The translations under genes were made by a program, and so were the position numbers. A model generated the notes under the pieces. The model saw nothing but the letters and a program-made list of their open reading frames with translations. It was not told the origin of the DNA and made no database searches. From IMG/VR virus record IMGVR_UViG_3300024520_000047, positions 62,001-126,000 of that record: a stretch of DNA of 64,000 nucleotides. One strand, written 5' to 3'. Origin of the DNA: a virus. Shown one piece after another: positions 19,166 to 22,174 of the stretch; position 1 is the stretch's first letter, and every line of letters begins with the position of its first letter.

Positions 19166-21676
19166 ATGTCCGATAATTTAATGCCACAATATCATTTTGA
19201 TGATTCAAAAGATACTCACCGTATTGGTGTTAAAAAAAACAAATTAACACATCATCGAGACCCCGAAGATAATGTAAAGGAGTTTGAGTTAAATACGGGT
19301 GTACCCGTGGAAAAATACGGTAAAGATGAAAATCGTATAACATACGATAGTGCGTCATATGAAGGAGAACCATGGTTTATTAGTAAATCATTTAATGATG
19401 AGGAAACCAATAAAAGGCCTTTACACCCCACAAAAGATTATTTACACCCTCATGATAGTCACACAGGTGATGACCATTTAGAAATGGGGACTGGTAACTA
19501 CTATCCCCAATATAAAGTGCCTTTTATGGATAATAATAATGTAGATAGTGTAAATTATGATGAGGATGGGAAATTAAAATTAGATAAAAAAATAAATGAA
19601 ACCATTTCACCTTCTGTCAATATTTATAATAAAAATAAAAATAATAATAGTATGAGTAATTTAACTGAACAAATAGATAGAATTAAACAAATGATTCTAT
19701 TCAAAGAAGGCATGAGTTTTAAGGATGTAAAAAACTTAACTGAACAAGAAAAATCCGACTCTACAGCTGTTGCACCATCTTCAGATGGTGGTGATTCAAG
19801 TGTTACTGTAGACAAAGCAGAACCTTCTGTAGGTGCAGCAAAAGCTGCAGAGGTCTCTAAACTAACTAAGTCAGCGGAGAGGGAAAAAACCCCATTAGTA
19901 GAACCCTCTAAGGAAGAGCCTTCTAAGGAAGAACCAAAAGAGGAACCAAAAGAGGAACCAAAAGAGGAACCAAAAGAGGAACCAAAAGAGGAACCAAAAG
20001 AGGAGCCAAAAGAGGAGCCAAAAGAGGAAGAGCCGGTTGAGGAAGCTCCTGAAGAAGCCCCTGCAAACCCAACCACAGTACAATTAACACAACCCATTAT
20101 CGCGACTGTTACAGGCGTAAAAGAAGGTCTAGCATCTATGTTATCTGACCCTGAAGTACAACGAGCCATTAATAATATTAAAAACTTTAAAGCGGACCCA
20201 GAGAAAAAAGCCACCTTATATGATGAATTTATAGCGGCCTCCCGACATTACGGAGAGGTACCAGGTACAATCGGAGTGGACCAAGAAAAAACTGAAGCTT
20301 ATAATGATTATGTTTCAAAATATGTTCCTTATTATGCACTAGCAATACCTGAAGGTCAATTAAGTAGAGCTAACACATTAGACGCTACTATGGAAAATGC
20401 TAATGTAGGGTTGGATAATATTATTGACGCTGGGGTGGGATTAGATTACGCATACACTCTGGGTAAAACAGCAGGTGCTAACGCTTGGATGGCGTATGCT
20501 GCGTTATCACAATTAGTAAATGCTAATATTTACATAGAAAGAGCAAATTATTTAGCTAGTGATGAAGGTCAAGCTGCATTCGAACAAGCAAACACAGATA
20601 ATGTTAATTTTTATGGTACTTACATTACGCCTAATACCCAAGAGTATTGGTTACCTAATGTTTATCCAGAATATTCTACCCTAAGTAGTGATATCGGCAC
20701 TATGGAAAGTAATTTTACCTACACCGCTCCTGAACCTGCTCCATCTGAAGAAGAGGGTCCACGAGGGGAGAAACCTACAGAGGAAGAAGAAGAAGGCCCA
20801 GACAAAGAAGAGAGCCCTAAAGGAGAATCATCTAAATCTATTATTATACCATTTCAGGGTACTAATTATGAATTAAATACTGGTGGTATTTCAAGAGATA
20901 GTAAATTTACAAAAAATGACGCTACAATAAAATCTGGAAAAGAAGGACCAGAATTAACTCTAAATGCAGAACACGCGAAATACGGTAAAGGATATTATAA
21001 TGGTGTAATGAACCCAGATAATAATGTATTTTATGTAACATTTTATAATGATAGAGGTGATGGTCAGAACAAATATAAAATAGAAGCAAAATTAAGTAAA
21101 TATAAAGTTAAGAGTAGACAAAAAGCCCCAGCTAGAACAAGTAAAACAGCTATGAGTCGTGGTTCATATGATTCACCAATGGGTATAGTTGGTACTAGTG
21201 GTAAATTTACCGGTGTAAGTCCAAAAGCCATGGGTCCTTTTAATCAAGACCCATATGCCCAACAATCATCCAACGCTGAAGAAGAAGGTGATGACGAATC
21301 TAAAAAGAAAGAAAATTTAGCAGAAAGACGATTACCTAGAGGATATTATAAAAATAGAAAACCTAAAGTTATGAAAAGACCTAAACAATTAACAGAAGCA
21401 CCAATTAGAAAATCTAAAGGAAAAAAAATTATTAAACTTAGAGAATCAGATTTATATCGGATTGTAGAAAGAGTTCTTAATGAAAATAAAAAAGGTAAAG
21501 GATGTGCAGAATCTGAAGGTGGTTCTGGATGTATCAAAAAAGGAAGTTATACAGATAAATCTGGTAAGAAATATACTTGGCATATCTTAAATAATAAAAA
21601 AGGTGGTATCTGGAGAGGTTGTACTAGTAGAAAAGATTGTGAAGAAATATTAGATGCCTTCCACGCTAACTCTTAA
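19166..21676 (+). CDS. 836-aa mosaic protein with helical tag motifs, probably virion-internal
   Basis: Segments in order: residues 1-150, a polar His/Asp-rich N-terminal domain; a low-complexity NKNKNNN linker; an internal Met163 followed by MSNLTEQIDRIKQMILFKEG; a Ser/Ala/Glu region; a KEEP repeat (about 256-287); an Ala/Tyr-rich helical domain (about 305-510); a second acidic linker; a beta-rich domain (about 550-650); the motif SRGSYDSPMGIVG; the helical motif IKLRESDLYRIVERVLNE (about 756-773); and a C-terminal domain ending in DCEEILDAFHANS. No enzyme motif found. The tags recur in other proteins here, pointing to a shared targeting signal. It is divergent from the 177-aa gene. The Met163 region resembles a former gene start, so the protein may be a fusion or have two products. 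Confidence 0.55.
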   Translation: MSDNLMPQYHFDDSKDTHRIGVKKNKLTHHRDPEDNVKEFELNTGVPVEKYGKDENRITYDSASYEGEPWFISKSFNDEETNKRPLHPTKDYLHPHDSHTGDDHLEMGTGNYYPQYKVPFMDNNNVDSVNYDEDGKLKLDKKINETISPSVNIYNKNKNNNSMSNLTEQIDRIKQMILFKEGMSFKDVKNLTEQEKSDSTAVAPSSDGGDSSVTVDKAEPSVGAAKAAEVSKLTKSAEREKTPLVEPSKEEPSKEEPKEEPKEEPKEEPKEEPKEEPKEEPKEEPKEEEPVEEAPEEAPANPTTVQLTQPIIATVTGVKEGLASMLSDPEVQRAINNIKNFKADPEKKATLYDEFIAASRHYGEVPGTIGVDQEKTEAYNDYVSKYVPYYALAIPEGQLSRANTLDATMENANVGLDNIIDAGVGLDYAYTLGKTAGANAWMAYAALSQLVNANIYIERANYLASDEGQAAFEQANTDNVNFYGTYITPNTQEYWLPNVYPEYSTLSSDIGTMESNFTYTAPEPAPSEEEGPRGEKPTEEEEEGPDKEESPKGESSKSIIIPFQGTNYELNTGGISRDSKFTKNDATIKSGKEGPELTLNAEHAKYGKGYYNGVMNPDNNVFYVTFYNDRGDGQNKYKIEAKLSKYKVKSRQKAPARTSKTAMSRGSYDSPMGIVGTSGKFTGVSPKAMGPFNQDPYAQQSSNAEEEGDDESKKKENLAERRLPRGYYKNRKPKVMKRPKQLTEAPIRKSKGKKIIKLRESDLYRIVERVLNENKKGKGCAESEGGSGCIKKGSYTDKSGKKYTWHILNNKKGGIWRGCTSRKDCEEILDAFHANS
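19931..20026. repeat. 12-bp tandem repeat encoding Glu-Glu-Pro-Lys
   Basis: Eight tandem copies of GA(A/G)CCAAAAGAG, the first six identical and the last two with one change (GAG for GAA). It codes for a stretch of about eight Lys-Glu-Glu-Pro units. The near identity suggests recent expansion by slippage and possible length variation among relatives. The strand opposite is open but codes only for a Phe/Gly/Ser mirror of the repeat. Confidence 0.9.
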
Positions 21677-21700: not shown

Positions 21701-21763
21701 ATGTGTGACTGTAAAGAATGTAACTGTGGTACAAAATGTAAATGTACTTGTTGCAATTGTTAA
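21701..21763 (+). CDS. 20-residue cysteine-rich, metallothionein-like peptide
   Basis: ATG at 21701 to TAA at 21761-21763 encodes 20 residues, of which nine are Cys, at positions 2, 4, 7, 9, 13, 15, 17, 18 and 20. The others are mainly Lys, Asn, Thr, Asp, Glu and Gly, with no hydrophobic or aromatic residue besides Met1. The CxC, CxxC and CC spacings are those of metallothioneins and would suit Zn(II), Cu(I) or Cd(II) thiolate binding. The short reading frame ends just before a strong terminator and follows the 836-aa gene by 24 nt, so it would be the last gene of that transcript. No Shine-Dalgarno is seen. The regular Cys pattern is hard to explain unless coding; a role in metal buffering is inferred. 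Confidence 0.6.
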   Translation: MCDCKECNCGTKCKCTCCNC

Positions 21764-21780
21764 AAACTAAATAATTAATT

Positions 21781-21810
21781 AAAAGGGGATTGAACGATTC
21801 CCTTTTTTTA
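21781..21810 (+). terminator. Rho-independent terminator after the Cys-rich peptide
   Basis: AAAAGGG and CCCTTTT pair around GATTGAACGATT, whose ends GAT/ATT may extend the stem imperfectly, followed by a run of T. It ends the + strand transcript of the 836-aa gene and Cys-rich peptide. Confidence 0.75.
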
Positions 21811-21832: not shown

Positions 21833-22174
21833 ATGGAGAAACCATACATATCAGAATTAGACATTAAGAAAGCCGTCAAAAAAGTATTGGCAGAAGACAA
21901 TAGATTGCCCGTAGACGACTATGAGTTTGAGATGGACGATTCTACCTATGATGACATTTATGAACACCAAGGACCTGTAAGACACTTTAGGGGGTCTATC
22001 TACTATGATGGGTATGTTCCTGAGACTGATGACGTAGAGTATGACCGGAAGGTTGCACAAAAACTTTTAGAGTATGAAAGAAATAAATTAGGAAGTGCTG
22101 AAACGTATGTTGGGGGTGTTGGTTTTAAAAATCGTGGTAACCTTATTGAGCCTTTCGATAATATGGATTTCTAA
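21833..22174 (+). CDS. Small acidic protein with N-terminal helical tag motif
   Basis: 113 aa. The N-terminus YISELDIKKAVKKVLAEDN is close to the IKLRESDLYRIVERVLNE motif near the C-terminus of the 836-aa protein (shared pattern I-x-E-x-D-hydrophobic-(x)3-V-(x)2-VL-x-E). The rest is acidic and polar with many Tyr and Asp and a C-terminus IEPFDNMDF. It lies between a terminator and the convergent gp46 gene; the two stop codons overlap in the sequence CTAA. A virion or scaffold role is inferred from the tag only. Confidence 0.5.
   Translation: MEKPYISELDIKKAVKKVLAEDNRLPVDDYEFEMDDSTYDDIYEHQGPVRHFRGSIYYDGYVPETDDVEYDRKVAQKLLEYERNKLGSAETYVGGVGFKNRGNLIEPFDNMDF

Follow-up and report, generated by a model that had tools for sequence, protein, structure and literature searches.

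A nine-cysteine, putatively metallothionein-like peptide of 20 residues is encoded by phages and marine Flavobacteriaceae

A very short open reading frame on a viral contig of 245,874 bp is very probably a genuine gene for a free-standing micro-metallothionein-like peptide common to phages and marine Flavobacteriaceae, as judged from the sequences of the peptide and its relatives. The frame lies in a stretch of 64,000 nucleotides of that contig (hereafter, the window). Such genes are missed because gene finders skip frames this short, and the preliminary description of the window had suggested just such an overlooked small metallothionein-like gene. Our analysis supports this suggestion, in that the frame is a selected gene, overlooked due to its length, whose product is most simply read as metallothionein-like. 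What had escaped the preliminary description is that the peptide represents a widespread family, which marine Flavobacteriaceae also encode on their chromosomes.

A single cysteine-rich frame in the window

The features of the window needed in the following are:

19166 to 21676, plus strand: gene for an 836-aa protein with a KEEP-rich repeat; no family match above the cut-off
21701 to 21763, plus strand: nine-cysteine peptide gene, 20 aa, MCDCKECNCGTKCKCTCCNC; supported by the translated sequence and its conservation
21781 to 21806, plus strand: hairpin resembling a terminator, with a T run behind it; one found against 0.3 expected in shuffled sequence
21833 to 22174, plus strand: gene for a 113-aa protein with no assigned function; served as the anchor in the search for orthologs

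Translation of 21701–21763 returned the nine cysteines in 20 codons (45% of residues) that had first drawn attention to the frame, arranged as C-x-C-x2-C-x-C-x3-C-x-C-x-C-C-x-C between a clean ATG start and a TAA stop. The peptide thus combines CxC, CxxC and CC pairs, and it contains no aromatic residue. In the window (G+C content 33%), this is the one and only open reading frame of 15–40 aa with at least 30% cysteine, and none of that kind occurred in 60 × 64 kb (3.84 Mb) of fourth-order Markov sequence generated from it.

The peptide frame starts 25 nt past the end of the 836-aa gene, inside a gap of 156 nt that separates this gene (end, 21676) from the start of the 113-aa gene (21833), and the hairpin begins 17 nt past the peptide's stop codon. 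Both the gap and the rho-independent hairpin had been described correctly, the latter being present as the terminator-like structure listed above. The 836-aa gene and the peptide are probably co-transcribed, with the hairpin probably marking the end of their transcription unit. The 836-aa protein itself, which matched no known family, carries a repeat of the KEEP type, some 50 residues long, and a cysteine-containing C-terminal end (encoded at 21430–21676) after the motif KLRESDLYRIVERVLNE. This end is similar in the related locus L124, while L122 has an unrelated, cysteine-containing end in its place, as though modules at the C-terminus were exchanged.

Cysteine codons are under strong purifying selection

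To find orthologous loci, we searched with the 113-aa gene, so that the peptide had no role in the search. Three of the eight loci obtained (L122, L123 and L124; 67–69% anchor identity) carried the peptide at the orthologous place, downstream of homologs of the 836-aa gene (family F4), and it was absent from the five more distant ones (L125–L129). All cysteines are kept in the peptide of the three carriers (MCDCKECNCTTKCECTCCNC), as is the hairpin/terminator. The window differs from this version at four codons—two synonymous changes, one G to T and one K to E—none of which affects a cysteine. L122 and L123 look like one and the same phage.

In many members of the family, the next gene encodes an FAD-dependent dehydrogenase (family F1; identified by a PHROG match). 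This allowed selection to be measured without ASCERTAINMENT on the peptide, at loci gathered by searching for the dehydrogenase instead. Among 80 phage loci collected this way, 19 contained the peptide, and all 19 retained nine of nine cysteines with the stop directly after; remnants with six to eight cysteines in the right place were found at none of the 80. Over the 17 distinct loci placed on the F1 tree, the cysteine codons underwent at least 25 synonymous TGT/TGC changes and not a single amino-acid change, against 40 amino-acid changes at the ten spacer codons. Were changes random, the probability of all 25 cysteine-codon changes being silent would be below 1e-14 over transition biases of 1 to 8. 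The preliminary description had proposed looking for purifying selection at the cysteine codons, and for broken frames or freely drifting cysteines in related genomes: the sequence comparison indicates strong selection of this kind on every cysteine, and neither form of decay was seen at these loci. A locus thus has either the complete gene or none at all, as would be expected of a strongly selected accessory gene; that it is accessory also follows from most phages of the dehydrogenase group being without it.

Two further observations concern the region in front of the dehydrogenase gene. At L213, L214, L210 and L275, the slot just upstream of this gene is occupied by another small cysteine-containing peptide (for example, MKRFICDLVYALSFRNICFGWCGSKIKCDCNCNC), in some cases with a CxCxC tail. 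Moreover, a conserved RNA-like element lies between the late operon and the dehydrogenase gene in phages outside the window (L201–L280 and the L004–L187 group, e.g., L131), both with and without the peptide. It consists of a 5-bp hairpin with the loop AUUCAUAGC, an A-rich linker of 22–28 nt, the sequence GCUGUG complementary to the loop segment CAUAGC, and lastly a terminator. We compared 68 distinct sequences, retained on condition that at least four of the five stem pairs form. Across this set all five are maintained, with compensatory changes of several types, and the inner pair of the pseudoknot is G-C, A-U or U-A. Neither an Rfam search of five loci nor a tRNA search gave a match. The element looks like an undescribed H-type pseudoknot and is possibly a switch controlling read-through.

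The cysteine spacing defines a family of phage peptides

We scanned IMG/VR for the cysteine spacing in TGY codons only, demanding neither a start nor a stop codon. This returned at least 120 stretches, many of them simple repeats; when spacer codons starting with T were excluded in a second scan, the repeats disappeared and 68 stretches were left. After filtering, the matches listed comprised 90 loci with 69 distinct peptides, made up of the phage loci from the two scans, the anchored loci L122–L124 and four chromosomal loci (see below). Most of the distinct peptides are 20 (n = 18), 21 (n = 33) or 22 (n = 14) aa long; three have 23 aa and one has 36. In nearly all non-repeat loci listed, an ATG stands one to four codons ahead of the first cysteine, and a stop codon comes straight after the last cysteine or within two codons of it (TAA in 83 of the 90 loci). 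The spacer residues drift, mostly among D, N, E, K, Q, G, T and S, and histidine occurs in just one of the 69 peptides.

A control scan with a closely similar spacing of equal degeneracy yielded two stretches, namely L070 and one repeat frame. L070 (minus strand, approximately 798–890) is a 36-residue, two-module member with 13 cysteines, MRNRQNCNCENCKCQKACNCMKCNCSKSCDCACCDC, in which the first half seems to have been duplicated. When we searched for the last seven cysteines and the stop only, the first cysteine was present in all 62 genuine members and the second in 61. The lone exception at the second position, L320 (minus strand), is a natural cysteine-to-tyrosine variant, MKDCNYQTCKCKTSCNCSCCVC.

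The spacing is thus not a chance arrangement: it recurs across dozens of phage loci, as the preliminary description had proposed checking, and these form a family of dozens of conserved relatives. Because the spacing scans selected for TGY codons, it is the anchored, dehydrogenase-gene, antiporter-locus (see below) and last-seven-cysteine tests alone that carry less or no such bias.

The peptide is a chromosomal gene in marine Flavobacteriaceae

The stricter pattern, which excludes spacer codons starting with T, was also run over 84,980 species genomes, where it matched five stretches. Four are real and come from metagenome-assembled or single-cell genomes of marine Bacteroidota; the fifth is a repeat frame of Ruminococcus and not a member of the family. 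In one genus of small-genome marine Flavobacteriaceae, 18 of 25 genomes carry the peptide, and in all 18 it adjoins the same gene, which we take from our own reading of the sequences to encode a CaCA-type (calcium/sodium) antiporter; several copies are near genes we likewise read as glnA and a pirin-like gene. A search for the antiporter gave no match in the seven genomes of the genus without the peptide and found the gene in six of six tested carriers, which served as a positive control. Assembly incompleteness is a likely cause of the seven absences, since these assemblies measure only 0.8–1.3 Mb. At other loci, the peptide was detected in two of 15 genomes of another family (G002 and G233) and in one further genome of the same family (G013).

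Among the bacterial copies, the cysteine codons show at least 30 silent changes and the spacers 50 amino-acid changes. As the bacterial set was found through the cysteine pattern, it is the shared locus that carries the weight of the argument here. Gene transfer probably accounts for the relation between the phage and bacterial copies. Their identical nine-cysteine spacing, length and stop position make common descent likely, the peptide being too short for a tree to prove it. A search of the bacterial genus for the phage dehydrogenase, as a possible link between host and phage, gave no match.

A metallothionein-like reading and its alternatives

The peptide has the composition by which metallothioneins are recognized—roughly 30% or more cysteine, CxC, CxxC and CC pairs, and no aromatic residues—and its cysteine pattern is selectively kept in the dehydrogenase-gathered set. 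By every feature that sequence can test, it would therefore be called metallothionein-like, while standing outside any known sequence family. With nine thiols at fixed spacing, polar spacers, and neither aromatic residues nor a hydrophobic core, a metal-thiolate cluster is the only evident fold. The reduced peptide would fold only around soft metal ions, giving a single cluster; by analogy, its nine thiolates should be enough to coordinate three Zn(II) or Cd(II) ions tetrahedrally (M3Cys9) or to hold about six Cu(I). In phages, the peptide would be made together with the neighboring gene of its transcription unit (the 836-aa gene in the window) and may buffer or take up zinc or copper, or protect thiols, during infection, and in the bacterium it may be a small stand-alone metal buffer. 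Recognized metal-resistance or metal-uptake genes were found among none of the bacterial and phage neighbors examined.

An unlikely alternative to this reading is that of a host-takeover or counter-defense peptide, which during infection would strip a particular protein of zinc or copper or supply these metals to it. The many phage contexts of the gene, which is gained and lost as a unit and leaves no decayed copies, would suit such a role; however, no target is indicated, and the same gene is stably inherited on the chromosomes of a bacterial genus, which suggests a general buffer instead. We likewise consider it rather improbable that the peptide acts as a disulfide or thiol buffer, an oxidant scavenger or a thioredoxin-like partner in which metal binding is incidental. 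Nine cysteines in 20 residues and the FAD dehydrogenase gene behind many relatives could point that way, yet the dehydrogenase sits behind a separate terminator, most phages that have it are without the peptide, and CxC, CxxC and CC motifs fixed at nine positions are what multinuclear metal clusters need.

Very improbable is the idea, raised in the preliminary description, of a cysteine-sensing leader, in which stalling on the cysteine codons would set the terminator and control the downstream gene. The window does show the matching order of frame, terminator 17 nt on and plus-strand gene, and polycysteine leader frames acting as cysteine attenuators exist in mycobacteria according to work cited in PMC9094748 (Canestrari et al. 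2020). As they appear in that citation, the mycobacterial frames resemble our peptide in being very short, cysteine-rich and missed by annotation, and differ from it in that they act in cis, whereas the peptide occurs in varied contexts, often without a terminator, and with a fixed cysteine spacing that an attenuator does not need. No terminator lies within 130 nt of any of the 23 chromosomal copies, seven of which face a convergent gene; in the phage group of 88 copies, a convergent gene is faced by 14 (one of these, L199, being a duplicate chromosomal locus), and about 23 lead directly into the following gene with no terminator. Downstream genes are unrelated from one context to the next, and elsewhere in phages the peptide is found inside operons or at the ends of operons with holin-like or other genes. 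Given that it can lie within an operon, at the end of one or next to a convergent gene, the peptide is therefore not a cysteine attenuator, a class defined by a 5′ leader with an attenuator. Finally, a random cysteine-rich frame, arising by chance or as an artefact, is practically excluded by the cysteine conservation at loci gathered without using the peptide and by the lack of a comparable frame in the Markov sequence made from the window.

Discussion

Profile searches of Pfam, NCBIfam and PHROGs with the peptide gave no significant family, as is expected of 20 residues, which can hardly reach significance. NCBIfam and PHROGs returned no match at all. What profile resemblance there was pointed solely to metallothioneins: Metallothio_2 scored best in Pfam (E = 0.54) and wheat Ec (2KAK; E = 3.8) among PDB chains, both of them insignificant and not establishing homology. 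Against cultured-phage records, tblastn with the peptide or a joined two-peptide query found no match, for which low-complexity masking may be the reason, and blastn of the coding DNA returned short chance matches only.

Comparison with known metallothioneins nevertheless offers points of reference. The vertebrate beta domain has nine cysteines and forms an M3Cys9 cluster; our peptide shares the number of cysteines (enough for a three-metal cluster), the CxC and CxxC pairs, the shortness and the lack of aromatic residues, but has another spacing, 20 rather than about 30 residues, no second domain and no detectable sequence relation. For wheat Ec, a plant type 4 metallothionein, the best profile alignment pairs CxCGxxCxCxxCxC with CxCGxxCxCxCCxC, although Ec is longer, has two domains and, as stated, does not score significantly. 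Neurospora copper thionein, with about 25 residues and seven cysteines, is similarly a very short peptide rich in CxC with a single cluster, as we propose for ours, and differs in cysteine number, spacing and eukaryotic origin. The bacterial SmtA/BmtA proteins are over twice as long, with a different Cys/His pattern and a folded zinc-finger part, and membership in their family (PF02069) was rejected, as there was no match to it and histidine is so nearly absent. As regards function, bmtA of marine Synechococcus is a precedent for the putative role of the peptide, in that it shows how metallothioneins can be of importance to bacteria storing zinc in seawater (PMC9337993).

Our peptide looks like one of the smallest metallothionein-like proteins and, if this is true, would be among the shortest genetically encoded metal-cluster peptides. 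It would also found a metallothionein-like family of phages; on this category we found no paper in the open literature, where a search for phage or flavobacterial metallothioneins returned nothing relevant. Gene-length cut-offs hid the family in both phage and bacterial annotation, and its recovery illustrates that genes below 30 codons can be found and validated by spacing combined with anchored comparison. The peptide is, moreover, a sharply defined and cheaply synthesized test object. More speculatively, and less likely than not, a new class of metallothioneins of about 20 residues would form a gene pool common to marine Bacteroidota and to phages whose genomes range from small to very large, through which phages might take over, store or release the scarce zinc or copper of their host during infection. 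If true, this would link phage infection to the handling of trace metals in the ocean.
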